From contig JALQTV010000004.1 in the NCBI GenBank assembly GCA_023268675.1, positions 1 through 40,221 on the forward strand: a stretch of DNA of 40,221 bases. The letters are read 5' to 3'. This stretch comes from Saprospiraceae bacterium (GTDB taxonomy: Bacteria; Bacteroidota; Bacteroidia; Chitinophagales; Saprospiraceae). Position 1 is the stretch's first letter; each line of letters begins with the position of its first letter. Of this stretch, positions 11,339 to 25,901 are shown in pieces. The position numbers were made by a program, and so were the translations under genes. The notes below the pieces were generated by a model that searched no databases, was not told the origin of the DNA, and saw nothing but the letters and a program-made list of their open reading frames with translations.

Positions 11339-11364
11339 GGAGATGGGCTATTCATCTCCTTTTT
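11339..11364 (+). terminator. Intrinsic terminator after deacylase copy 2
   Basis: GGAGATG (11339-11345) pairs with CATCTCC (11353-11359) across a 7-nt loop and is followed by TTTTT (11360-11364), a classic intrinsic terminator on the plus strand. It overlaps the stop codon of the convergent porP/sprF-like gene at 11363-11365. Confidence 0.8.
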
Positions 11365-12322
11365 AAAACATATATTGATAGCCAACGTAAAAGTCGTAAC
11401 TGCTGCCCCGGGTAGCTGCAATATCTCCCATATTGAAGCTGCCCCGGGTACCGGCTTTGATCAGGCCGTCCCTGGTCAATACATTCCTGAAGTACACTCC
11501 GGCCTGAAAACTCATCAAATTTGCCGAAGAATAATCCAGTCCTGCCCAAAATGTTTCTATCATTTCCAGCCTTATACCCAAGTGTGTATTGAACAGATTT
11601 TGCTGCGCATAATCCACCCAGACAGAAGGTTCAATTAAAAATACATCTCTCACTATACGCACTCCTATCACAGCATTGGCGTGTAACCTATTTTCATATT
11701 TGGCGGCACTACCGAGACCGGAATAGTCAAAACTACCCGGAATCAAGCCTGTGACAGCTGCACCGAAGTAAAAAGAACTTTTGCCATACAAATCTGATGC
11801 ATTGGACAGATATAAGAATCCTGCTGCCGCATTGAAGTCAAACTGGTTGAGTTCTCCCCCAGGAATGAGGTTGTCGTCCGGATCATTGACGACCAGATCC
11901 AATCCATCAAACAACTGCTGGTTTACCATACCTGCAAGGCCTATTGCCAGTCGATCCTTTTGTCCCAGTCCCGGTCGGAATCTATAGGCATAAGTCATGC
12001 CAATCTGATTAAAAACCATAGGCTGTATCTCGTCGTGGTTAAAAAAACCACCCAGACTCATCTGCTGGTCCATTAGCGGAACCTGCACTCCCAACATGGC
12101 AGTTTTGGGTGACCCGTCGAAACCTGCCCACTGCCGGCGATAAGCCATACTGACCTCCATGCTCTCTCCCATAGCTGTCATCGCAGGATTCCAAAGATAA
12201 GACAACTCCCCAAACGCCGGCCTATTGGCCACTTGCTGTGCCTGAATCCCTATGGTCCAAAGTCCGGAAAACAGTCCGAACAGCACTCCTATTTGCCGCA
12301 AATTATACCACTTTGCTTTCAT
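11363..12322 (-). CDS. PorP/SprF family type IX secretion outer-membrane protein
   Basis: A 319-residue outer-membrane beta-barrel protein of the PorP/SprF family. A signal peptide (to about residue 29, GIQAQ) precedes the family hallmark: an early NPAMTAMGES segment, then AYRRQWAGFDGSP. The remainder is a series of amphipathic strands, ending DFYVGYQYMF with a C-terminal Phe. SprF is needed for the surface export or attachment of the giant adhesin SprB in Flavobacterium johnsoniae, and PorP/SprF genes typically sit right after a gene encoding a type B (CHU_C) sorting domain. That is the case here: its ATG shares one nucleotide with the upstream TGA. Function in this species is inferred from that arrangement. 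Confidence 0.93.
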   Translation of the reverse strand: MKAKWYNLRQIGVLFGLFSGLWTIGIQAQQVANRPAFGELSYLWNPAMTAMGESMEVSMAYRRQWAGFDGSPKTAMLGVQVPLMDQQMSLGGFFNHDEIQPMVFNQIGMTYAYRFRPGLGQKDRLAIGLAGMVNQQLFDGLDLVVNDPDDNLIPGGELNQFDFNAAAGFLYLSNASDLYGKSSFYFGAAVTGLIPGSFDYSGLGSAAKYENRLHANAVIGVRIVRDVFLIEPSVWVDYAQQNLFNTHLGIRLEMIETFWAGLDYSSANLMSFQAGVYFRNVLTRDGLIKAGTRGSFNMGDIAATRGSSYDFYVGYQYMF

Positions 12323-14229
12323 CAGTTTCTCAGTATGGTCAGCGTCTGTTTGATTTGCTTGTTGCGAAAAGCAAGCACATAAAAATAATTTCCATCAGGT
12401 AGCGGTGAACCCTTGTAGGTACCGTCGAAACGCTCATCATCCCACTGGTAATTTATCTTTTGATAGACTATATTTCCCCAGCGGTTAAAAACCCTGAGCA
12501 CATTATTTCCATATTTTTCTGCCTTCGGAAAAAAAAGCACATCGTTCTTCCCATCTCCATTGGGAGTGATCAAACTTATGCGAGGCAGTTCAATGTCGCT
12601 GTCAAGCACCTCCACAACAACAGAATCCCTTATCACACAGCCGTTTTCATCTATCATCACCACCTTGTAGGTAGTTGTTTCCAGTGCTTGTATCACAGGA
12701 TTGGCAATAGCAGGATCGCTTACGGGATAGGCTGCGGGCAGCCAAAAATAACTCAGCGCTCCATCGGCCTGCAATTGAATGGTAGTACCTTCCACTATAC
12801 AGGTATCCGGTCCTGCATCAGCTGCTATCGGAAACAGTTCTACCATTACAGCAGCCGTATCTGCTCCACATGCGTTTGTTCCGATTACGCTGTACAAAGA
12901 AGAATAGACCGGTGCTGCCAGCACTTCTGAAGTATTGGACTGGTTCAAGGTCGCAGAAGTATCTATCCAGATATATTCCGAAGCACCTGAAACAGTCAGT
13001 GCAACTGATTCTCCCGGGCATATTTGCCAAAAGGTATCCGTTACATTCACTTGGGGAGTCTGAGCAGTAAGCACTTCTACCGTATCAGCATAACTGCAAT
13101 CGTACTCATTTGTTATTGTCAGGCTATAGGTTCCGGGCTCGACTATGGTAATAGCCGCTTCGGTGGCACCTGTGGACCATTCATAAGATTTGAAACCCGT
13201 TCCCGGAGAGAGCGTCAGACCCTGATCACCGCAAATGGCCTGTTCGCCCCCCAGATCAAATACCGGAATATGCGAAGCCTCTATTTCAAAAGCTTTCTCT
13301 GTCGCACAATTGTTGGCATCTGCTACCTGCAGGGTGTAATTGCCTGACTCCATTGCTACCAGGAAGGTATCGGTCATGATTTTATTCCCTATGCGAAACT
13401 GATAAGGCGGAACCCCACCCCGAACGGACCAGCTCACAGAAGCAGGCTGTACTTCACAGGGTTTTTCTTGCATCGTTATGTCCATAATCTCCGGAGCGCT
13501 CTCAGGTTGCGTTACGGAAATGTCTCCTCGGTACATCAGCGTTCCATCTGTATCTCTGAACTCAAAAGTGTAATTTCCTGCCTGCAAACCACTCAGGCTG
13601 GCTCCCGAAGCAGTAAAATCACCGGGGCCTTTCCAGGTAAGGTCCGTGTCGATAAGTTCCTGTGGAACCTGCAGCTGAATGCCACCATCTTCGGCACCAT
13701 AACAAGTAGCCGGGCGTACCGTCCATCCCACATTGAGCGGCTTTAGCAGACGAACCACTCCGGGTTTGGCATCCAGGTCTATCGCTTCGTGCTTGTCAGC
13801 TGAGGCCGTAGTCGCCTGCACAATTTCTATGGGAAGCGGTTCATTTTGAATGCGAATGAGCGTAGAATCACCCGGATTCCCTGATACCCTAAACTGCAAA
13901 CGGACGATAGCACTGTTATCAGCCAGCGTCTGCCCTATGCCGTTAATGTCAAACCAGGAGAACCGCAGGATGCCATTTGCAGAGGAAGTACTGCCCAAAG
14001 CAGTATTCGACAGATCCCCCTTAGAAAACGAAAGGTATTCCAATACCTCCGGATTCCAGGCAATGGAAAAATCCATACTCACGATCCTGCTGAAGTCCCT
14101 CACCCGTAGTTCGAGATCCAGAGAATCGCCGGATACCGCGGAGGTATCCGGCAAAACCATGGTTAAAGGTTGACTATAACTCAGACTCATAGCAAAGAAT
14201 GCCAAGCCGGCCAGCAATTGATATTTCAT
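12322..14229 (-). CDS. Cohesin-like, SprB/Ig-like surface protein with CHU_C (type B) sorting domain
   Basis: A 635-residue T9SS cargo protein. The signal peptide ends near SLSYSQ (residue 20). Residues ~21-165 resemble a cohesin-type beta sandwich (SGDSLDLELRVRDF, MDFSIAWNPEVLEYLSF, ILRFSWFDINGIG). Residues ~170-335 hold SprB-like repeats (VPPYQFRIG, GNYTLQVADANNC). About 340-545 is Ig-like, including EYDCSYADTVEV and GPDTCIVEGTTIQLQADG. The last ~85 residues form the gliding-motility-associated C-terminal domain: ITPNGDGKNDVLFFP, LRVFNRWGNIVYQ, then LPDGNYFYVL. That domain targets proteins for type B secretion and PorP-linked surface retention. It lies 27 nt after the giant gene and one nucleotide into porP/sprF, so a three-gene operon is clear. 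The cohesin call rests on pattern recognition. Confidence 0.92.
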   Translation of the reverse strand: MKYQLLAGLAFFAMSLSYSQPLTMVLPDTSAVSGDSLDLELRVRDFSRIVSMDFSIAWNPEVLEYLSFSKGDLSNTALGSTSSANGILRFSWFDINGIGQTLADNSAIVRLQFRVSGNPGDSTLIRIQNEPLPIEIVQATTASADKHEAIDLDAKPGVVRLLKPLNVGWTVRPATCYGAEDGGIQLQVPQELIDTDLTWKGPGDFTASGASLSGLQAGNYTFEFRDTDGTLMYRGDISVTQPESAPEIMDITMQEKPCEVQPASVSWSVRGGVPPYQFRIGNKIMTDTFLVAMESGNYTLQVADANNCATEKAFEIEASHIPVFDLGGEQAICGDQGLTLSPGTGFKSYEWSTGATEAAITIVEPGTYSLTITNEYDCSYADTVEVLTAQTPQVNVTDTFWQICPGESVALTVSGASEYIWIDTSATLNQSNTSEVLAAPVYSSLYSVIGTNACGADTAAVMVELFPIAADAGPDTCIVEGTTIQLQADGALSYFWLPAAYPVSDPAIANPVIQALETTTYKVVMIDENGCVIRDSVVVEVLDSDIELPRISLITPNGDGKNDVLFFPKAEKYGNNVLRVFNRWGNIVYQKINYQWDDERFDGTYKGSPLPDGNYFYVLAFRNKQIKQTLTILRN

Positions 14230-14256
14230 ACAAACTTCTCTCGCTCGGTTATGAGA

Positions 14257-17200
14257 TTATTCTATGATAATCATGCTCTTTGTAGCAATGAAGTCTTCTG
14301 TTTTCAAAGTGTAGTAATAGGTTCCCGGAGCAAGTCCGGCCTTTTCAAAATTGATCTGATGCGTACCTTTTCCGTACTGTCCACGTATGCGCCTGACCAA
14401 TCCTCCCATGCTATCAAATACATCCATTTGAAGGCCTGAAGGTTTTGGCAAACTGAATTTGATCACCGTTACATCCACAAAGGGGTTGGGTTGGTTTTGG
14501 AACAAAGTGTAATCACCTGTTTCCCACTGTGGAGCAAATGGCGGCGGCAAACTCGGAGGAGTTACAGCCGGAGTATTATTGCTTTCAGCAACAAAATTCA
14601 GCGCAATTTCCATAGGTTCTGAATCCGGCGTATGAGCTACGGAAGACAAGGCATTTTTATCGAGCCAGATCAGGTCTTTCAATGATCCCGCCGCTTTGGT
14701 AGCTTTCAGACGCAGGGTAAATACCTCTTCTTCTTCCGAAGCATTTACACCTTCTCCGGTCATGCTAAACCAGCTGAAGCGCAGTTGGCCTCTGTTGACA
14801 TTGCTGGTACCTACTGACAGGGAGTTCAAAGCATCTGACTCAGGTTTGTCGATGGCTACAAATTCCAGTTTGGAATTGTCAAAAGCCAGGGCAAACTGAT
14901 AGCTCGCAATATTGTTAAAATCTTTACTGGCAAAGGGTAATTCTATTATTTCACCCGGTGCAATCGCCTGATCCTGCAGATCAAAAGTAAGTACCTCTTC
15001 TCCGCGTGGAGAAGCATCTACCTGTTGCAATTCATTCGTTTTTGCACGTCCCAGGATGTCTCCGACTTTCACAGCCGTGAAATTGACAGCATGCTCTCCT
15101 TCCATGGTCATTTCAACCGAATTATTGTAGGGGAATACATTGTATGCATCAAATGACTCCGGCATGTTTTGCTTTTCAGAGACAAACACCCAGGGTTTGC
15201 AATCGCCAAAGGAATCAGAGGTTCCAATAATCAAGCGCTGGATCAAGAACAAATCAAGGGTAGTAAAGGCACCATTACAATTGGCATCGCCTGCGATGAT
15301 TTGGTAAGGAGAATAAATCTGTTCCGGCTCCAATCCAAGGATAAAGCGCTGGCCTACAAACAATGCATAGGTTGACAAGCCATTGGCAGGATTATCTCCT
15401 CTTTCAGGCACGATTACATAAGAACCACCCACCGGTAAATCTTCCAACACATAGTTACCCAAATCGTCGGTTTCTCCGATGATCTCCAGGTCTCTGCTTC
15501 GCACATGAATATCCACACCCTTTACTCCGGCTCCGGTAAAAGTAGCAACTGAACCTCTCAAACCGGTACTCTGTACCACAGTCACCATACCCTTGATCGC
15601 TATGAAGGCAGGTTCTGACACAGATCCATCCCGCATACCTGCCAATTCCATTTGCAGCGGACTATTGGCAAAACGGATAGGTGTGGCTTGCCCCGGAGTA
15701 CCCAGAAGTTCTACTGTAAGGAAAAACAAAGTATCGTTGTCGTTCAGATCTACCCCCAGGCCACTGTTGTCGTAGTAATTGAAAGTAAGGTTGCTCACAT
15801 TCAGAATAGGCGTAATCTTGCCGGCAGTCACCCCTGTAACTCTTGCAACAGAGGGATCATCAATCGTAAGTGAGCCCGCAAGTGAAGCAATTTTTGACAA
15901 GTTACTGATCACCACAGGCAGTTGGATTACTGCTCCGGGAGCACCGCGGGATTCGGTGATGTTGAGTTCAACCAAACTGCTATCCAGTTCTACATTGATT
16001 AAGAAGCAACGCTGTGTACCTCCACAGCTGTTGGTTACTTCCAGACATACGTTATAAGTACCCTCGTCACAGAATTCATGTACCGGGTTCTCTTCGGTAG
16101 AAGTTGCTGTCCCATCACCAAAGTTCCAGACATAGGTTCCATCAGAAGAATTATTGACAAAAGTTGCCGTTACTCCATCCAGAGTATAAGTAAAATCAGC
16201 TGTTGGCATGCCACCTGTAGAACTTCCAATCGTCACAGCTGCAATACCTGTACATCCTCTACTGTCTTCCACTGTCAGGTTATAGTTGCCCGCAGATAGG
16301 TTAGACAAGAGATAGATACTGCCGCTGGAGGTAGTAGAACCACTGGATGAACCTGACCAGGAGATGGTATAAGGAGGCTGATCCGTAAAAAATTCAAACG
16401 TAATCACATCGTTTCCACCACAATTGCCACTTTCAATCGTATAATCAAACAAGTTTGCCGGGCCTTCTGCTACAGTAACCATTCTCGCAATAGAACAACC
16501 ATTGGCATCTTCCACCCGGATTAGATAATCACCTGCAGCCAGATCTGTGAAAGTCCAGGTATTTGTATTGATTTGTGTACTCGTAGAACCCGTGCCACTA
16601 TTGTAGGAAACAATGAATGGCCCGGTACCCTCGGTAATTGCCAACGCAATATTATTGGCTTGTCCACATTCATTAGCCACCAGTGTAGTAGTAAAATCAA
16701 GCGATGATTCTACATTCACAAAAGTAAAGGAACTACTCTCAGAACATTCGTTGTACACACCCTTAGCCTCGATTCCATAAGTACCGCTGGGAAGGTTCTT
16801 GATTTCAAAGCTGGTACCAGTCACGCGGATACTGCCATTTACAGGACCCGTCCAGGAAAGATCATAAGGTCCAAAGCCCTGGGTAAAGTTGACCAAAACA
16901 GAACCTTCGGCCGTACAGGGATCCGAATTGACAACGGTGCTGAACAAATCTGCACTTGACTCGACAATATTGACTGTCTGACTAAGCCAGCAACCCAATG
17001 CATCGGTGATGTATATGGTATATCTTCCGGAAAGAAGATCTGTGATCTCATAGGCTGCCCCACTGATGGTATCCACCCCGTTACTTGGACCATTCCAATT
17101 GATGGTATAGGGACTGGCTCCGCCCAAAATGTCTACCCAGATGGTATTGTACGCGCCACACTCTCCCTGGATGAGCGATGACTCTGATTCCAGATCGGAA

Positions 17201-20200
17201 GTCGAACCAATCGTAATGGTCTGGGAAGACTCGCAACCATTGGCATCAACGATGGTTACAATATAGGTTCCTGCCGTCAGATTGTTTTTGTCAAAATCAT
17301 TGCTGAAAGTAACCTGACTGCCACTTTCAGGTCCGGTCCAGCTAACCGTAAAAGGAGCCTGACCACTGAAAATGGATATCCACATGGCCGCCGGTGCTCC
17401 GCAACTGGTTTCTACCTCTTTCACCATCATATCCAAAGCACTTTCAGGACTGATTGACTCAAAAGTAGTAGTAGCAACGCAATTTCTGGAGTCCTTCACA
17501 GAGAAAACATACACACCAGGTTCCAGGTTATGCAACTCAAAATTGGGGTTTTGAGTAGTCATGGTACCGCTGGATGGGCCTGTCCAGGAAACACTGTAAG
17601 GTCCCTGATCTGAGATGAATTCTATAAACAAGCCGGTAGTTTCCCCGCAAAGTCCACTTTCTGCTGACAATTCAAAAATACCCAGAGTATTCTCGACTAC
17701 TTCAATAGTTTGTACCAATTCACAACCATTGCCATCAATCAGCGTAAGCGTATAATTATCAGGAGCAAGATCTGTAATCTCCAGTGCTCCGGTATTTGTC
17801 TGGAAGTTGTTGTTCAAAGTAGATCCTTCAACATTTACGATGTAAGGAGATTTACCACCAAGAACATCTATCCAGATGGTATTGTATTGACCACACTCGT
17901 TGACCAGTAGAGAAGCGTTCATCTCAAGGTCCGATTCAGTATTGGTGATCGTGAATGTGCTTGTTTCCAGACAGTTTTCAGAGTTGGTCACGGAAACCAT
18001 ATAGGTTCCGCTTACCAAACCGGTAATATCTACCCAGGTCTGGTTGGTAGTTTTGGTTCCTCCGGTAGGTCCATTCCAGGAGATGGTGAATGGAGGCGTT
18101 CCTTCTGTTATATCCAAACCAATGCCGCCGTTATTTCCGCAAGTACCGGAAATAGCCATCCCATCGAACAAATCTACCTCAGATATTACCACAGCTTGTG
18201 TGAATTCAGCAATACAACCACTGGCATCTGTTACTTTTACGCGGTAATTACCTGTAGCGAGGTTGGAAATTTCAAATGCAGGTACCGTGCGTGTCATAGA
18301 ACCTATGCGGGCACCGGTCCAACTGATGAAATAAGGACCTGTTCCACCTGTAATTTCTCCACGAATTACATTGTAGTTTCCACAGCCGTTTTCGGCTAAA
18401 AAGGTATTGACTTCGATTCCGGATTCAGGATTACCCAAAGTTATCTCAATAGATTCCTGGCAACCATTATCATCTTCCAGCGTAATCACATAATTACCCG
18501 GAGGGGCATTCAGAATGTCATAGCTGTTTCCGGTAATATTCGTGGAACCATTCATCGGCCCCGTCCAGGTTATCGAAAACGGACCAGGCTTGCTGGAACC
18601 TACCCAAATGGTACCGGGTTGTCCACAGTCGCCTTCCGCAGTAGAAGCTCCGATATTGAGACTAGTCTCCAGATTGATCCCTACATAATTCACTTTGGTA
18701 CAGCCCTGGGAATCTGTTACCAGGAAGGAATAGTTCCCTACAGGTAGGTCTGTTACAGTATAAACGCTGTTGGTAATTCTCACAGAACCACTTCTGGGAC
18801 CTGTCCATTGAATGTCATAGGGACCCACACCACCTGTTACGGGAATAGTAATTTTCCCATAGGGAGTGCTGCAATTCGCATGTTCGGCCAACAAACTGAA
18901 TGACAGGTTGCTGGTAGTATTGACCACCGTTACAGGCAGGCTGGTCACACAACCCTGTGCATCGGTAACTTCAATCATATTTTCGCCGGTAGGCAGGTTG
19001 TCGATAACAAATGTTCTGCTACTGGTATTTTCCCAACCATCCGTAATACCGTCCCATTTCACAACGAAACCAGGAGATCCACCGTATATATCCAGGACAA
19101 TCTCTCCGCGCTCTCCGCAGGTTCCCCCCACGGCTGTAGCCTGAATTTCCAGATCGCTCTCGCCCTGCAATATGCTCACTACTTCTGAAGCCGCCAGTCC
19201 AATTGCATCTCTAAGAGTAAGGGTATAAGTCCCTACAGGAAGATTGCTGATAGTCGTACTGGTCGCATTTCCTACAAACTGTGTACCCGTAACCGGTCCG
19301 GACCAGCTCAAAGTAAATGCAGGGTTGCCAATTTGGATATCTACCTGAATGCTACCGGTCAAACCACAACGGGCAGCGGAAGGCGTAGCTGTGAAGAGCA
19401 AATCGCTCTCCTGACCGGAAATAAATACGTTGCGTGCGCGTGCGCAGCCCGCTGCATCTACTACGGTCAACTGATAGACCCCTATCTGAACGTCATTTAT
19501 GGTAAGCGTTCCGTTGAGTGAACTGATGGTACCTGAAGTAGGGCCCGTCCAGCTTATTTGATAAGGTGCCTGACCTCCTTCTACCAATACCTCAATGTCG
19601 CGATTACCGGTACTTCCCAATACTACTTCAGCAAATAGATCGTAGGGGTTAGATTCTGCAACACCTAGAGTAACAACGGTTTGACAACCATTCAGGTCAC
19701 GTACAGTCACAATAGTAGTCCCAGGGTTCAAATCAGAGAGTAAAACAGTGCTGTTGTTCGTTGCAACAGACATTTCATTGCTTCCTGTCAGCTCGACCGT
19801 ATAGCCGGGACTTCCATTGGCAATTTGTACCAACAGGCCCAGGTTGTCTCCACAATCACTCTCTGTCTGACTGACAGCTACTGTAATTCCCTCGTCCGTA
19901 TTATCAACAGTAACAACTTCCACAACGGAACACCAGAAATCATCTTCTATCAGAATAGTATAATCCCCGTCAGGCAAATTGGGGATGATAATCATGCTGT
20001 CGCTGGTATAGATATCCCCATCAACCGGACCACGCCAGGAAATGGTGTAAGGTGCCTGACCTTTGTTCATTTTTATCATGACGCTTCCCAACATTCCACA
20101 GGCTCCGTTCATCACCTCTATATCCGCTGCCACACCGTTGTTTTCGACCGTCAGGTCGCGGCTGTAAATACAACCGTTGCCATCGGTAATTGAAAGGGAA

Positions 20201-22344
20201 TAATCCCCTGCAGAAAGATTGGAGATGCTGAAATTGCTGGTAGTATAGGTTCCAACTCCACCATCGGGGCCTACCAGTACAACAGAGTAATTAGATACCC
20301 CATTGAAAGTCTGCACATTAATGGCTCCTGTGCTTCGGCAAGAAGTTGGAGTGGTAGTTGCGGTAAAGTAAAAGGCATTTTCAGGTATTGCCAGTTGGAA
20401 ATTACCAAATTCCAAGCAGCCATTGGCATCTTCCACTTGAATTTCATAAGCACCCGCCGAAATATCTACATTGAAGTTACTCGCTGTAGTGATGAAATTT
20501 TCCCGCGTAGGCCCGTCAATGATCACCTGATAAGGACCTGTGCCGCTGGTGACGATCACATTCACACTACCTGTAGCTCCGCAAGCCAGGTCAGCGAAAG
20601 TATTGGTTGTGATGGTCATGCTTGTATTCGAAGACAACAACACTTCCTGCGTATCCGTACAGCCATTCACATCTGTTTTGCTGATCTGGTAGCGACCTGC
20701 AGGCAGGTTGGATATCGTATTGGAAATGCTGGACGTAGTTACACTCCCTACATCCGGGCCTTCCCAACTCACCACATAAGGAGGCAAACCGCCTGATGAA
20801 GTTACAGTGATAGAACCACTGCTGAATCCACAAACAGGCTCTACTACACTTGTTCCGGTAATATCCATGCCACAACCACTGGGACATTCTACTCTAAGAG
20901 AATAATTACTGGTGGCACCATTGTAACCATCTACTACCACGTAGTAGGTACCTGCAAGCAGGTTGGCGTTTATTTGTTCGTCAGCGTTGCCGGCATTTTC
21001 ACTGAAGTCTATACAGGCATTCCTGTCGCAATCATCCAACAAAAACAACTCAAGGTTGTCCGTAAGACCGGAAAGATAAATATTGACATTGCCATTTTCG
21101 GTGATGGTAAAAGTATGCACCACTTCCGGGCCATTGTTTTCTACATTGATCACTCCCTCGCAGCCATACCCCGATACCAGATCTGTACCGTTAACGTTAC
21201 TGCCACTATAGGTTACGCCACAGCTAAGAGCTATTGCTGTACCACAGTCCAGATTGCCACAACTCAATTCCAGATTATAATTGCCAGTGGAAGCGGCATT
21301 CTCACCATCTACTACTATATAATAAGTACCCAGAGGAGCATCCTCCAGAACAATTCCTTCGTTTACAGAACCCGAATTCGAAGACAAACTGGCATCAATA
21401 CAGGTCACCTGACTACAATCTCCGCTAAGCAAAATCAAATCCAGGTCTAATCCGGGTGTTAGTATTTCCAACCCGATTTGAATATCCGTTACCGCCGTGT
21501 TGTAGAAAACATAAACCTTCTCTGCTGCCAAAAAAGTACCGTCACTACAATCAGAGTAACTCGAGATAAGATTGATTCCACCAACAGTTGTTTCATTGAT
21601 CAGGAGATCTCCACATTGAATAGGCGTTGCCTGTACGCACCATTGAGAACTCCCCAGACAAGGTCCGGCAGTAGTACTCAATACACCTGCTTTGGTAGCC
21701 TCGCAATCATTCAGGTAGGTCACTCCGTTACAACCACATACAGGGTCATAAGTAGTAGGACAAGGAGCCAAAGGGTCAACCTGGGCAGGGTCAACACATC
21801 CGGTACAATTGCCGTCTCCAAACGTAGTAATCCCACTCGCTTCAGCAACACAAGCATTCTCATAAGTAACCCCATCGCAACCACATACGGGCGTATTATC
21901 CGCCGCACAGATGTAAGTCAAAACTCCTGTTGTAGCATTGACAGTTACTGCGGAAGAATTGATCACAGCTGAAGGATCATAACAGGCATTTTTCCCCGTA
22001 CATACACCCGACGTATAAGTCGTAACCCCCCTTGCCTCAGCGATACAAGCATTGTCATAAGTGATGCCATTGCAACCACATACAGGGTCATAGGTCGTAT
22101 CGCAAATTGCCCCCGGATCAATACGGGTATAATCAATACAACCACCAAAACTAACTCCCTGAACGTATTCATAAGAAGCCAGGCCTGCTTGCTCCGCATA
22201 GCAGCTATTGAGATACACCACCCCATCAATGCCGGTTACCGGATTGACTTCCGTCGGCGAACAAGAAGTTACCTGAGCTGAAACAGACTGAAGCTGAAGA
22301 AAACTGAAAATTAATGTGAGAAGAACCACGTACAACTTGCCCAT
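14257..22344 (-). CDS. Giant T9SS surface protein: Kazal, PPC, 19 SprB-type repeats, PKD, cohesin- and dockerin-like modules
   Basis: A 2695-residue protein, by far the longest in the window. Order: signal peptide 1-24; Kazal-like modules at ~28-70 (degenerate), 80-117, 146-182 and 194-230, with DPVCGCNGITY-type cores; two PPC-like modules ~236-365 and 366-490; 19 SprB-type repeats 494-2045, about 82 residues each with a GP(x)G core and a DxxGC end; PKD domain 2046-2118 (WNFGDGTAT, CDEGTYNVCLEVTN); cohesin-like module ~2122-2256; carboxypeptidase-regulatory-like segment 2262-2315; dockerin-like segment 2351-2380 (GDANCNGAFTTLD); second cohesin-like module ~2446-2588; proline-rich linker; type A T9SS sorting domain 2610-2695 (NQPNPFVDVTVIKFSLP to the end). 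It should be exported by T9SS and act as a surface adhesin, with possible protease inhibition by the Kazal modules. First gene of the locus. Confidence 0.95.
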   Translation of the reverse strand: MGKLYVVLLTLIFSFLQLQSVSAQVTSCSPTEVNPVTGIDGVVYLNSCYAEQAGLASYEYVQGVSFGGCIDYTRIDPGAICDTTYDPVCGCNGITYDNACIAEARGVTTYTSGVCTGKNACYDPSAVINSSAVTVNATTGVLTYICAADNTPVCGCDGVTYENACVAEASGITTFGDGNCTGCVDPAQVDPLAPCPTTYDPVCGCNGVTYLNDCEATKAGVLSTTAGPCLGSSQWCVQATPIQCGDLLINETTVGGINLISSYSDCSDGTFLAAEKVYVFYNTAVTDIQIGLEILTPGLDLDLILLSGDCSQVTCIDASLSSNSGSVNEGIVLEDAPLGTYYIVVDGENAASTGNYNLELSCGNLDCGTAIALSCGVTYSGSNVNGTDLVSGYGCEGVINVENNGPEVVHTFTITENGNVNIYLSGLTDNLELFLLDDCDRNACIDFSENAGNADEQINANLLAGTYYVVVDGYNGATSNYSLRVECPSGCGMDITGTSVVEPVCGFSSGSITVTSSGGLPPYVVSWEGPDVGSVTTSSISNTISNLPAGRYQISKTDVNGCTDTQEVLLSSNTSMTITTNTFADLACGATGSVNVIVTSGTGPYQVIIDGPTRENFITTASNFNVDISAGAYEIQVEDANGCLEFGNFQLAIPENAFYFTATTTPTSCRSTGAINVQTFNGVSNYSVVLVGPDGGVGTYTTSNFSISNLSAGDYSLSITDGNGCIYSRDLTVENNGVAADIEVMNGACGMLGSVMIKMNKGQAPYTISWRGPVDGDIYTSDSMIIIPNLPDGDYTILIEDDFWCSVVEVVTVDNTDEGITVAVSQTESDCGDNLGLLVQIANGSPGYTVELTGSNEMSVATNNSTVLLSDLNPGTTIVTVRDLNGCQTVVTLGVAESNPYDLFAEVVLGSTGNRDIEVLVEGGQAPYQISWTGPTSGTISSLNGTLTINDVQIGVYQLTVVDAAGCARARNVFISGQESDLLFTATPSAARCGLTGSIQVDIQIGNPAFTLSWSGPVTGTQFVGNATSTTISNLPVGTYTLTLRDAIGLAASEVVSILQGESDLEIQATAVGGTCGERGEIVLDIYGGSPGFVVKWDGITDGWENTSSRTFVIDNLPTGENMIEVTDAQGCVTSLPVTVVNTTSNLSFSLLAEHANCSTPYGKITIPVTGGVGPYDIQWTGPRSGSVRITNSVYTVTDLPVGNYSFLVTDSQGCTKVNYVGINLETSLNIGASTAEGDCGQPGTIWVGSSKPGPFSITWTGPMNGSTNITGNSYDILNAPPGNYVITLEDDNGCQESIEITLGNPESGIEVNTFLAENGCGNYNVIRGEITGGTGPYFISWTGARIGSMTRTVPAFEISNLATGNYRVKVTDASGCIAEFTQAVVISEVDLFDGMAISGTCGNNGGIGLDITEGTPPFTISWNGPTGGTKTTNQTWVDITGLVSGTYMVSVTNSENCLETSTFTITNTESDLEMNASLLVNECGQYNTIWIDVLGGKSPYIVNVEGSTLNNNFQTNTGALEITDLAPDNYTLTLIDGNGCELVQTIEVVENTLGIFELSAESGLCGETTGLFIEFISDQGPYSVSWTGPSSGTMTTQNPNFELHNLEPGVYVFSVKDSRNCVATTTFESISPESALDMMVKEVETSCGAPAAMWISIFSGQAPFTVSWTGPESGSQVTFSNDFDKNNLTAGTYIVTIVDANGCESSQTITIGSTSDLESESSLIQGECGAYNTIWVDILGGASPYTINWNGPSNGVDTISGAAYEITDLLSGRYTIYITDALGCWLSQTVNIVESSADLFSTVVNSDPCTAEGSVLVNFTQGFGPYDLSWTGPVNGSIRVTGTSFEIKNLPSGTYGIEAKGVYNECSESSSFTFVNVESSLDFTTTLVANECGQANNIALAITEGTGPFIVSYNSGTGSTSTQINTNTWTFTDLAAGDYLIRVEDANGCSIARMVTVAEGPANLFDYTIESGNCGGNDVITFEFFTDQPPYTISWSGSSSGSTTSSGSIYLLSNLSAGNYNLTVEDSRGCTGIAAVTIGSSTGGMPTADFTYTLDGVTATFVNNSSDGTYVWNFGDGTATSTEENPVHEFCDEGTYNVCLEVTNSCGGTQRCFLINVELDSSLVELNITESRGAPGAVIQLPVVISNLSKIASLAGSLTIDDPSVARVTGVTAGKITPILNVSNLTFNYYDNSGLGVDLNDNDTLFFLTVELLGTPGQATPIRFANSPLQMELAGMRDGSVSEPAFIAIKGMVTVVQSTGLRGSVATFTGAGVKGVDIHVRSRDLEIIGETDDLGNYVLEDLPVGGSYVIVPERGDNPANGLSTYALFVGQRFILGLEPEQIYSPYQIIAGDANCNGAFTTLDLFLIQRLIIGTSDSFGDCKPWVFVSEKQNMPESFDAYNVFPYNNSVEMTMEGEHAVNFTAVKVGDILGRAKTNELQQVDASPRGEEVLTFDLQDQAIAPGEIIELPFASKDFNNIASYQFALAFDNSKLEFVAIDKPESDALNSLSVGTSNVNRGQLRFSWFSMTGEGVNASEEEEVFTLRLKATKAAGSLKDLIWLDKNALSSVAHTPDSEPMEIALNFVAESNNTPAVTPPSLPPPFAPQWETGDYTLFQNQPNPFVDVTVIKFSLPKPSGLQMDVFDSMGGLVRRIRGQYGKGTHQINFEKAGLAPGTYYYTLKTEDFIATKSMIIIE
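16210..20865 (-). repeat. 19 tandem SprB-type protein repeats inside the giant gene
   Basis: Residues 494-2045 divide into 19 head-to-tail units averaging 81.7 residues (about 245 bp). Each unit starts with a short strand and Cys-Gly, has a G(x)PY-x-(I/V)SW-x-GP core, then a (S/T)NLPxGxY turn and ends D-x-x-GC. The units are diverged at DNA level: no long identical stretches were noticed, so this is an old, stable array rather than a recently expanded one. The two-Cys pattern is kept in 17 units; unit 6 lacks the first Cys and unit 7 lacks the second. Confidence 0.88.
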
Positions 22345-22772: not shown

Positions 22773-25700
22773 ATGAAGAAAATCAACTTAAGCAGCTTTT
22801 TATACTGCCGACCAGCTTTACTACTCTTGATTGGCCTCTTTTTATGGACTGATCCTGCCATTGCTCAAATAGGAACCTCGGACCTCCAGGGGCTCAGTTA
22901 CCGATCCATAGGCCCTTCCAGAGGCGGTCGGGCAACTGCCGTGGCCGGTGTACCACAAGAGCTGTTTACCTTCTATATGGGTTCCACCGGCGGAGGAGTC
23001 TGGAAAACCACCGATGGTGGACTCAACTGGAACAATATATCGGATGGCTTTTTTAAAGTTGGTAGCATAGGTGCTATAGAAGTAGCCCCTTCTGATCCTA
23101 ATGTAGTATATGTAGGTACCGGTTCTGCCGACCCGCGTGGCAATGTATCCCCTGGAAAGGGAATTTACAAATCTACCGATGCCGGCGATACCTGGACCTT
23201 TGTCGGGCTCGAAAACGCCGGACAAATCGGCAAATTATCTATACACCCTGACAATCCGGATATCGTGTATGCTGCCGTACTAGGCAATGTTTTTGGCGCC
23301 AGCCCGGAAAGGGGCGTGTACAGAACTACCGACGGAGGAAAAAATTGGGAAAAAATCCATTACGTAAGTGAAAGGACAGGCTGTATTGATCTGGCAATGG
23401 ACCCCAATAACCCCAGAATCCTGTATGCAACTATGTGGACCGCCGAACGCAAACCCTGGACCTTCATAGATGGAAGCGAAGAAGGAGGAGTCTGGAAATC
23501 CACAGATGGTGGCGATACCTGGGAAAAATTGGGAGGCGGACTGCCCGGTGGACTATTGGGCCGCATAGGGGTGGCTGTTTCGCCTGTAAACTCAAAAAGA
23601 GTATGGGTACTCCTGGAAGCCAAAGAAGAAAAAGATGGAGGACTCTATCAATCTACCGACGGAGGCCAATCCTGGGAACGCATCAACCGCGACCACCAAC
23701 TGCGCCAGCGAGCCTGGTATTATACCCGCATTTTTGCCCACCCCACAGAAGAAAATACCGTCTTCGCAGTGAATGTGAGCTTCCTGAAATCCATTGACTC
23801 AGGCAAATCCTTCCAGCGCATCCGGGTACCGCATGGCGACAACCACAACCTGTGGATCAATCCACAGCACCCCAACGTCATGATTGAATCCAACGATGGC
23901 GGAGCATGTGTCACTTTTAACGGAGGACAATCCTGGACCACTCAAAACAATCAGCCTACCTCTGAATTTTATCGTGTAACAGTTGACAACCAATTCCCTT
24001 ATCGCGTTTATGGTGCGCAGCAAGACAATACTACCCTTTCTGTGCCCAGCCGATGGGAAGAGACGCTGGACCCTGTCCAAAACTGGTACGAAGTAGGGGG
24101 TGGAGAAAGTGGACATATCGCTGTAGATCCCAGAAACCCCGACATCATCTATGCCGGAACTTACATTGGCCAGATTACCCGCAAAGACAGACAAAAAGGA
24201 CATACACGGGATGTGGTCGCCTATCCGCAAATGCACGACGGAACCGCTCCCCGCGACATCAAATATCGCTTTCAGTGGAATGCTCCCATACGCTTGTCTC
24301 CACACAACCCCGATGTGCTCTACCACTGCTCACAATACGTCCACCGCTCACCCGACGGAGGCAGAACCTGGGAAATTATCAGTCCCGATTTGACTACCGA
24401 CAACGACGCCTACCACAATATTCCCGGTGAACCCATACAACACGATCATACCGGAGTTGAACTTTATACTACCATCTTCGCTTTTGAAGAATCTCCCCAA
24501 ACTCCCGGGGAATTATGGGCCGGCAGCGACGACGGACTCCTGCATATCTCTCGTGACAATGGCCAAAACTGGCAAAACATCACTCCTCCGGACATGCCCA
24601 AAGAAGGTACTATAAATATGATAGAACTCTCTGCCCATGCAGCCGGTCGTGCCCTGATCGCCGTTTATAAGTACCGGGAAGATGACTACCGACCCTATAT
24701 TTTCCTTACCAATGACTATGGCAAAAACTGGAAATTACTGACCAATGGCAAAAATGGCATCCCCGAAGATCACTTTGTAAGGGTAGTCCGCGAAGATCCC
24801 TTCAAAAAAGGATTGCTGTATGCCGGCACAGAATTCGGAATGTTTTTCTCTCCGGATGAAGGCGGCAACTGGCATCCCTTTCAACTCAACCTTCCCGTGA
24901 CGCCCATTACCGACATGGTCATCAAAAACAAGGATCTGGTCGTAGCCACCCAGGGAAGAGCATTCTGGATACTTGATGATTTGTCTCCCCTTCATCAAAT
25001 AGACCTCAAAGCGAACAAACTTTCCACTAGCCTGCTGAAACCGGAAGATGCCTTCCGCACCCAATTGTCCAATTTCAGAGGCAACAACGGACCCGACCCT
25101 GCTCCCAACGGCGCGGTCATCTACTTTACCCTGGACGATGCCAATAAAAAAGTGACCCTGAAAATTGCCGATGCCAATGGAAATATCCGACGTAGCTTCT
25201 CCACCCAACCTGACAAAAGCAAAAACGAAAGCCGCCTGCGCACCCAACAAGGGCTCAACCGTTTTGTCTGGGACTTGAAATACGAAGGACTCAAACCACA
25301 ACCGGGCTCTTTTTTCTCCCTCGCCAATACCGGAGGGATTATGGCTCCAAGCGGTACACACAAAGTTATCCTTGAAGTCGGGGATGAAAGTTTCCAACAA
25401 GCTCTGGAACTAAAAAAAGACCCCCGATGGACCGTTACCGATGAGGATCTCATGGCCCAATACGAACTCGGCATGGATATAAAGACCACCTTCAATGGCT
25501 GCCACGAAATGATCGGACAACTGCGTACCATTCGCAGCCAGGTTCAGGATGCTGCCCGACGCAGCAAGGAAGCAGGCCTGGAAAGCAATATTCAGGATAA
25601 GGCCAAAACCATAACAAGTCTTTTGAGCGAGCTCGAAGCAAAACTCATACAAACCAGGAACGAATCCGGGCAGGATCCGATTAACTATCCATCTATGATT

Positions 25701-25901
25701 GACGATCAGTTTGCCTACCTGTATTCTGTAGTCAATTCTCAGGATGACAGGCCCAACCAGGGAGCTTACGAGCGCCTTGCAGACCTGAAAAAAGAGCTGA
25801 AAGTACTGGAAGAAGCCTATCGCCAAATAATCGATGCAGAAGTCATTCCGTTCAGGGACTTCCTCGACAGGTCAGGACTAAGTCTGATCGACATTCCATA
25901 A
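22773..25901 (+). CDS. Secreted BNR/sortilin-like beta-propeller protein
   Basis: A 1042-residue exported protein with a signal peptide ending near DPAIAQ (residue 32). About 11 Asp-box (BNR) motifs of the S/T-x-D-x-G-x-x-W type are spread from about residue 75 to 700 (for example KTTDGGLNW, KSTDAGDTW, RTTDGGKNW, KSTDGGDTW, QSTDGGQSW, RSPDGGRTW), as in sialidases and VPS10/sortilin propellers. This count suggests two propellers or one large one. The segment ~770-870 looks like a beta sandwich and ~890-1042 is helical and charged. No T9SS sorting domain is seen. These proteins are often annotated as glycosyl hydrolases, but sialidase catalytic residues were not identified, so binding or peptide capture is equally possible. 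It is first of three genes, 17 nt before the next. Confidence 0.9.
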   Translation: MKKINLSSFLYCRPALLLLIGLFLWTDPAIAQIGTSDLQGLSYRSIGPSRGGRATAVAGVPQELFTFYMGSTGGGVWKTTDGGLNWNNISDGFFKVGSIGAIEVAPSDPNVVYVGTGSADPRGNVSPGKGIYKSTDAGDTWTFVGLENAGQIGKLSIHPDNPDIVYAAVLGNVFGASPERGVYRTTDGGKNWEKIHYVSERTGCIDLAMDPNNPRILYATMWTAERKPWTFIDGSEEGGVWKSTDGGDTWEKLGGGLPGGLLGRIGVAVSPVNSKRVWVLLEAKEEKDGGLYQSTDGGQSWERINRDHQLRQRAWYYTRIFAHPTEENTVFAVNVSFLKSIDSGKSFQRIRVPHGDNHNLWINPQHPNVMIESNDGGACVTFNGGQSWTTQNNQPTSEFYRVTVDNQFPYRVYGAQQDNTTLSVPSRWEETLDPVQNWYEVGGGESGHIAVDPRNPDIIYAGTYIGQITRKDRQKGHTRDVVAYPQMHDGTAPRDIKYRFQWNAPIRLSPHNPDVLYHCSQYVHRSPDGGRTWEIISPDLTTDNDAYHNIPGEPIQHDHTGVELYTTIFAFEESPQTPGELWAGSDDGLLHISRDNGQNWQNITPPDMPKEGTINMIELSAHAAGRALIAVYKYREDDYRPYIFLTNDYGKNWKLLTNGKNGIPEDHFVRVVREDPFKKGLLYAGTEFGMFFSPDEGGNWHPFQLNLPVTPITDMVIKNKDLVVATQGRAFWILDDLSPLHQIDLKANKLSTSLLKPEDAFRTQLSNFRGNNGPDPAPNGAVIYFTLDDANKKVTLKIADANGNIRRSFSTQPDKSKNESRLRTQQGLNRFVWDLKYEGLKPQPGSFFSLANTGGIMAPSGTHKVILEVGDESFQQALELKKDPRWTVTDEDLMAQYELGMDIKTTFNGCHEMIGQLRTIRSQVQDAARRSKEAGLESNIQDKAKTITSLLSELEAKLIQTRNESGQDPINYPSMIDDQFAYLYSVVNSQDDRPNQGAYERLADLKKELKVLEEAYRQIIDAEVIPFRDFLDRSGLSLIDIP

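Follow-up and report, generated by a model that had tools for sequence, protein, structure and literature searches.

The window analyzed here comprises 40,221 nucleotides from a draft genome of a Saprospiraceae bacterium (3.35 Mb, 88.5% complete). Open reading frame calling placed three co-directional genes on its minus strand. The first (positions 14257 to 22344) encodes a giant secreted protein of 2695 amino acids. The second (12322 to 14229) encodes a protein of 635 amino acids, composed of an N-terminal cohesin, Ig-like repeats and a CHU_C signal, which we propose to be an anchoring scaffoldin. It starts 27 nt past the stop codon of the giant gene and overlaps by 1 nt the third gene (11363 to 12322), whose product belongs to the PorP/SprF family of outer membrane shuttles. 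This assignment is based on matches to PF11751 (E = 1.2e-35) and TIGR03519 (E = 4.5e-39; 134.6 bits against a cut-off of 90.55) and on the position of the gene downstream of a gene for a type B substrate. No tandem DNA repeats were found in the window. A gene for a Sortilin/VPS10-like beta-propeller lies divergent to the operon (22773 to 25901, plus strand), with an amidohydrolase gene next to it; a propeller gene of this kind likewise adjoins one of the orthologous operons (L041).

The order giant, cohesin/CHU_C protein, SprF is kept in at least five other genomes (L041, L042, L044, L045 and L048), and it is kept in part in L043, where the contig stops inside the second gene. The giant of L041 is 73% identical to that of the window over the C-terminal block. 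An earlier reading of the DNA (the original prediction) had proposed that two adjacent secreted proteins form a surface scaffold through cohesin- and dockerin-like modules. The features that it named all lie where it placed them, and the two proteins are encoded in one conserved operon.

Pfam analysis of the giant revealed a long series of domains, all encoded on the minus strand. At the N-terminal, outer end are three Kazal-type inhibitor-like domains (residues ~80 to 226; 21667 to 22107; PF00050, E = 6.9e-17 over three stretches, with a match to ovomucoid, 1yu6). They are followed by two PPC domains (residues ~235 to 487; 20884 to 21642; PF04151, two stretches), SprB-like Ig repeats (residues ~490 to 2040; 16225 to 20877; PF13573, E = 2.1e-10, six stretches) and a PKD domain (residues 2057 to 2111; 16012 to 16176; PF00801/PF18911, with a match to the PKD domain of ColH). 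The chain ends in a type A sorting domain of the type IX secretion system (T9SS) (residues 2619 to 2693; 14266 to 14490; PF18962, E = 4.3e-15; TIGR04183). We considered whether the giant is an SprB adhesin proper; it has the repeats, but its tail is of type A, and the type B signal and the SprF protein belong to its neighbor. Kazal-type serine protease inhibitor-like domains are unusual in a bacterial adhesin, and a possible role is protection from the proteases of prey, hosts or competitors. In their place, the giant orthologues of L042, L046 and L048 start with another dockerin- or EF-hand-like motif, WPGDxNNNG..N..DLLYIGVGY. The original prediction had mentioned neither the Kazal and PPC domains nor the type A tail, nor the PorP/SprF gene directly downstream.

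Both secreted proteins matched the Pfam cohesin family (PF00963, curated cut-off 24.1 bits), the giant as a whole with an E value of 1.7e-15 (57.9 bits) in two stretches. Cohesin 1 (residues ~2125 to 2249; 15598 to 15972) barely exceeds the cut-off, with 24.6 bits over residues ~2125 to 2199; in the AlphaFold model it has the cohesin beta-sandwich, aligning with type I cohesins at a Z score of 15.6 and an rmsd of 1.9 over 127 to 129 residues. Cohesin 2 (residues ~2452 to 2589; 14578 to 14991) scored 43.2 bits, its best stretch being residues 2459 to 2554. As had been predicted, the CHU_C protein also begins with a cohesin (residues ~22 to 159; 13753 to 14166), which scored 40.7 bits (E = 3.5e-10) over residues 23 to 129 and is kept in six orthologous loci. 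A phmmer search of the PDB with the cohesin of this protein and with a tandem-cohesin scaffoldin (described below) returned no significant cohesin match, the best for the former being 2xdh (E = 0.26). We conclude that the cohesin modules of both neighboring proteins are real, which bears out the prediction of two such modules in the giant and one in its neighbor. At its other end, the 635-residue protein carries a type B (CHU_C) sorting domain (residues 553 to 626; 12352 to 12573; PF13585, E = 1.1e-21; TIGR04131, E = 7.7e-14).

The dockerin segment and its probable host domain

Between the two cohesins of the giant lies a segment with two F-hand-like helix-loop repeats (residues ~2316 to 2380; 15205 to 15399). 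The calcium loop that had been predicted near residues 2353 to 2364, DANCNGAFTTLD, occupies exactly these residues (15253 to 15288). It forms the second loop and is canonical (D-x-N-x-N-G...D): among 95 relatives, D2353 and D2364 never vary and N2355 is present in 88, so that the D, N and D positions are each retained in at least 88 of the 95. Loop 1 is degenerate, being one residue short and having A at position 2327, where the relatives have D.

The Pfam model Dockerin_1 (PF00404) gave nothing at an E value of 1 or below when run against the window protein. However, the segment can be aligned end to end with seven paralogues from the same genome (22 to 33% identity across a unit of ~190 residues), and Dockerin_1 matches seven of the eight members of this set (best E = 8.9e-6). 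Since three of the paralogues (C225, C122 and C232) exceed the curated PF00404 cut-off, the window segment is a divergent relative of dockerins. A profile built from the 95 relatives matched solved dockerins, namely, 4uyp/4uyq (E = 4.3e-7), 8zvk (E = 1.3e-6), 4dh2 (E = 2.7e-6) and 1daq (E = 5.8e-5), and the models described below predict the dockerin helices where they are expected. The verdict "no dockerin" that Pfam alone would have given was thus overturned by the paralogue profiles. Judged by these alignments, the giant carries a dockerin that is divergent and in which one of the loops is canonical. Among the checks that the original prediction had proposed, profile searches placed the cohesins above the cut-off and identified the dockerin through its paralogues and the joint profile but not through Pfam on the window protein itself; the search for other dockerin-like proteins in the genome yielded the seven paralogues.

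Structure prediction, another of these checks, was carried out on giant residues 2115 to 2695 with AlphaFold, using 96 sequences (pLDDT 91.2, pTM 0.73). In Foldseek, the best matches of this C-terminal model were 4fl4_I (E = 1.4e-12) and 3kcp_A (E = 9.0e-12), both of which are cohesin-X-dockerin segments of CipA; many cohesins were matched besides. 4fl4_I aligned across model residues 7 to 261, which span cohesin 1, the X domain and the dockerin, with an rmsd of 12.2, indicating that the domains match while the angles between them differ. The cohesin 1 fold and a CipA-like cohesin-X-dockerin block were therefore recovered, whereas the X domain and dockerin, searched on their own, returned chiefly TTR, CnaB and SdrD chains, with the CipA trimodule at Foldseek ranks 36 to 50. 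No isolated dockerin was among the matches listed for this shorter model, which does not speak against a dockerin fold, as the larger beta-sandwich fills the list.

The shorter model (pLDDT 93.1, pTM 0.87) runs from strands through the dockerin helices and back to strands. The first part of the X domain, a CarboxypepD_reg/CnaB/TTR-like domain matching PF13620, precedes the dockerin (residues ~2258 to 2315; 15400 to 15573), and its last strands, with an invariant W and an AxKxGD motif, follow it (residues ~2381 to 2430; 15055 to 15204). TTR/CnaB domains align over model residues 4 to 174, for example, 78 of the 81 residues of 5aq0_A, with Z scores of 6 to 7.6 to what is a common fold. The W and AxKxGD beyond the dockerin are conserved, and couplings, computed from ~86 effective sequences, join the strands before the dockerin to those after it. 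These three lines suggest, with due caution, that the dockerin interrupts a TTR/CnaB-like domain whose final strands come after it (15055 to 15573). The embedding of the dockerin in a beta-sandwich was not part of the original prediction.

Scaffoldins and dockerin proteins in the family

A scan of a genome collection found 576 relatives among the stretches matched, and the best 80 loci were nearly all from Saprospiraceae. With a profile of the X domain and dockerin, 61 related genomes were searched; matches were strong in most Saprospiraceae, with up to 26 per genome, and nearly absent in the other families of the order. Cohesins are distributed in much the same way.

The genome of the window itself encodes tandem-cohesin scaffoldins elsewhere. 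On contig C477, a cohesin/SprB/CHU_C protein (cohesin, E = 9e-33; SprB, E = 1e-68; CHU_C, E = 3e-22) is followed by an SprF gene and then by a gene for a dockerin-cohesin protein, and a second such scaffoldin, with four cohesins, is encoded on C103. The former is apparently split by an assembly break within near-identical cohesin repeats, its parts lying on C477 (L029, 8694 to 13697) and C124 (L030, 1 to 957); joined, the two contigs give a scaffoldin with four or more cohesins. The scaffoldins of other draft genomes may be hidden by like breaks. Tandem-cohesin loci in relatives encode 2 to 10 cohesins, often SprB repeats, a CHU_C signal and an SprF protein downstream. Usually, a gene for a small cohesin protein is followed by those for the scaffoldin and SprF, with dockerin proteins encoded on either side; in L124, for example, the scaffoldin has ten cohesins (E = 5.6e-85) along with SprB repeats (E = 6.5e-78). 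Scaffoldins outside the window combine SprB repeats with a type B signal in a single chain and have SprF encoded downstream, and the tandem-cohesin scaffoldin that characterizes cellulosomes occurs in the same genome and family but not in the window, where the anchor has one cohesin. The suggestion that a cellulosome-like logic is joined to SprB-type repeats is seen more clearly at these other loci, where single chains unite 2 to 10 cohesins with a CHU_C signal and often also with SprB repeats. Dockerin proteins were encoded in the retrieved flanks of 10 of 17 tandem-cohesin loci, whereas the density of dockerins would predict 0.63 (P = 4e-11 if placement is uniform); this statistic is indicative, the 17 loci having been picked mainly by cohesin matches at a time when the list of dockerins was already known.

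Most of the dockerin proteins scanned contained HYR/Ig-type domains or nothing recognized, which points to a role of this putative cargo in adhesion. The sole enzyme found with a dockerin among the proteins scanned was a Lys-C-like protease (C225; L034, 756 to 2636, minus strand; E = 4.4e-33 to 4nsy), which has the X domain and dockerin at its C terminus and lacks a T9SS tail. In a genome of the same genus (G001), a dockerin match (C37, 27801 to 28352) also meets a stop at its end. No carbohydrate-binding module (CBM) or glycosidase family was seen among the proteins scanned, which included part of the dockerin proteins. We considered a cellulosome as a description of the system; the scaffold logic is alike, but the proteins scanned contained no such module or enzyme, and we therefore do not class it as a cellulosome.

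Cohesins clustered by position, as cohesin 1 of the giants, dockerin-adjacent, mono-anchor, scaffoldin and small-protein cohesins, and mostly with their own kind; the anchor cohesins of the giant operons form a cluster of their own. The scaffoldin cohesins (L029 and L121 to L140) mostly share two cysteines, one in an early strand and one in a "CF" motif of a later strand, which the other classes lack and which are likely to form a class-specific disulfide. The dockerins likewise fall into two classes. In all nine giant-orthologue dockerins, loop 1 has A or G, helix 1 has F and each of the two helices has Q, and all 86 dockerins of the other class have D in loop 1 and H in helix 1, usually with RK in helix 2. 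This is how dedicated, orthogonal pairs would look, and the pattern is consistent with such pairs without proving them. Neither the family-wide spread nor the separate cohesin classes had been anticipated by the original prediction.

Candidate partners of the dockerin

In Flavobacterium johnsoniae, each type B substrate depends on a cognate SprF-like protein, which is encoded directly downstream and also determines where the substrate is located, and type A substrates use PorV (PMC12618676). Since SprF is needed by type B substrates and the tail of the giant is of type A alone, we take the CHU_C protein as the candidate outer membrane anchor, to which the giant would be held by dockerin-cohesin contact. 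The following sequence of events is the best explanation of the whole that we can offer, and we give it a probability of roughly 0.45. The CHU_C protein would be exported by the T9SS and kept at the outer membrane by the product of the SprF-like gene just downstream, by analogy with F. johnsoniae, thus becoming an anchoring scaffoldin that displays one cohesin at its free N terminus. For export, the giant would rely on its own type A tail, and its X-embedded dockerin, probably with calcium in its loop, is predicted to bind this cohesin in trans. The Kazal/PPC end and the SprB-like repeats would then extend outward, presumably in an adhesive function. In a second branch, dockerins of the H/RK class would be collected, several at a time, by the tandem-cohesin, SprB-repeat scaffoldins with CHU_C and SprF, and the Lys-C-like protease may be among them. 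The giant orthologues have their own dockerin class and the anchor cohesins their own cluster, as dedicated pairs of giant and anchor would.

The dockerin might instead act in cis or in self-assembly, by binding the neighboring cohesin 2, or cohesin 1, within a stiff intramolecular C-terminal block or in head-to-tail fibers of giants. A cohesin follows within about 10 to 20 residues of nearly every dockerin unit in the same chain, and in almost all of the 115 full units 215 to 251 residues remain past the dockerin, which correspond to a cohesin and a sorting tail; this arrangement suggests a role in cis or in self-assembly, and the pTM of 0.73 for the five modules together hints that they are packed in an ordered way. 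However, the linkage was partly selected, the query for the 80 loci having contained the cohesin, and some dockerins lack an adjacent cohesin: the protease C225 stops at its dockerin, and C72 runs directly into a sorting tail. Moreover, among the top 60 couplings, those between dockerin and cohesin 2 were underrepresented (3 against ~11 expected) and those between dockerin and X domain numbered 14 against ~9, which gives no sign of cohesin 2 filling the dockerin in cis, although with ~86 effective sequences this is weak evidence of low power. We regard binding in cis as improbable. Neither a cis cohesin as a rival partner nor the SprF gene as the likely means of anchoring the CHU_C protein had been raised in the original prediction.

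It is similarly doubtful that the modules are structural blocks inherited within T9SS adhesins, serving as stalk or as the segment before the sorting tail, in which binding has been lost. The degenerate loop 1, the marginal Pfam score of cohesin 1, the setting among many Ig-like stalk domains and the fact that the dockerin is coupled mostly to its own X domain would all fit such a loss, and the pairing within the operon is also explicable by common ancestry of the parts without contact. Against it stand the retention of the D, N and D of loop 2 across the relatives, helix residues that are fixed and specific to each class, and the repeated linkage of dockerin and tandem-cohesin proteins in genomes. 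Least probable is that the giant docks onto the tandem-cohesin, SprB-repeat scaffoldins elsewhere in its genome and not onto the adjacent anchor, for although C477 with C124 and C103 offer four or more cohesins each and the genes of other dockerin proteins adjoin those of such scaffoldins, the dockerin of the giant is unlike those of its paralogues at several helix positions and the anchor cohesin is a separate conserved class within the same operon.

Docking in trans onto the CHU_C/SprF anchor would form part of a wider proposal, to which we would give even odds. Across the Saprospiraceae, a non-cellulosomal surface network may exist in which mono- and tandem-cohesin scaffoldins, fixed by CHU_C and SprF and often fused to SprB repeats, gather dockerin proteins, as many as about two dozen in one genome, through TTR-embedded dockerins, sorted by separate cohesin and dockerin classes. 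If so, cohesin-dockerin assembly would serve adhesion or protein degradation, not cellulose, in a large group of ecological importance (activated sludge, marine and predatory Bacteroidota), with an outer membrane anchor of a kind not known in cellulosomes. The proposal would explain the many dockerin proteins of Saprospiraceae genomes and would give SprF-type shuttles a role in anchoring other adhesins. Such a network could be tested directly by pull-down and could supply new orthogonal cohesin-dockerin pairs.

Comparison with known systems

Aureispira is a member of the Saprospiraceae. In the 635-residue protein, the Ig-like repeats and the CHU_C end match the grappling hook protein GhpA of this genus (9flp; E = 1.5e-27), and the cohesin lies outside the matched regions. 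Cohesin-like genes have been noted in another member of the family, MAG096, and read from CAZyme annotation as a cellulose-degrading cellulosome (PMC8547425); neither an operon nor a T9SS anchor nor a pairing with dockerins is mentioned in the parts of that account available to us. In the openly accessible literature, we found no account in Saprospiraceae beyond these cohesin-like genes, and family-wide cellulosome-like surface scaffolds on the T9SS are apparently undescribed there. The closest described system is in another phylum: a T9SS-sorted tandem-cohesin scaffoldin with dockerin-bearing peptidases or hydrolases, proposed to form a cellulosome-like complex, in the Cloacimonadota ("Candidatus Stygibacter") (PMC8542988). 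The original prediction was not aware of a described system of this composition; with a comparable arrangement proposed outside the family, the idea is not entirely without precedent. That complex is described with CBMs and hydrolases, and the accessible portion of its description makes no mention of SprB repeats, CHU_C/SprF pairs or X-embedded dockerins (PMC8542988).

With the SprB/SprF pair of F. johnsoniae, the proteins share the SprB repeats as well as a type B signal whose SprF shuttle is encoded directly downstream (PMC12618676). There, SprB bears the type B signal itself; here, that signal belongs to the cohesin protein, the giant having a type A tail. SprB as described has neither cohesins nor dockerins.

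The best structural match remains the C terminus of CipA from Clostridium thermocellum (CohI9-X-DocII; 4fl4 and 3kcp), where, as in the giant, a cohesin, an Ig-like X module and a dockerin stand in this order at the end of a scaffoldin. The partner of the CipA dockerin is a separate surface protein that combines a cohesin with an anchor. Unlike CipA, the system described here showed no CBM or glycoside hydrolase among the proteins scanned, and its anchor is of the CHU_C/SprF type in place of SLH. In CipA the X module is followed by the dockerin, whereas here the dockerin is apparently inserted in an X-like domain, with a second cohesin and a T9SS tail coming after it.
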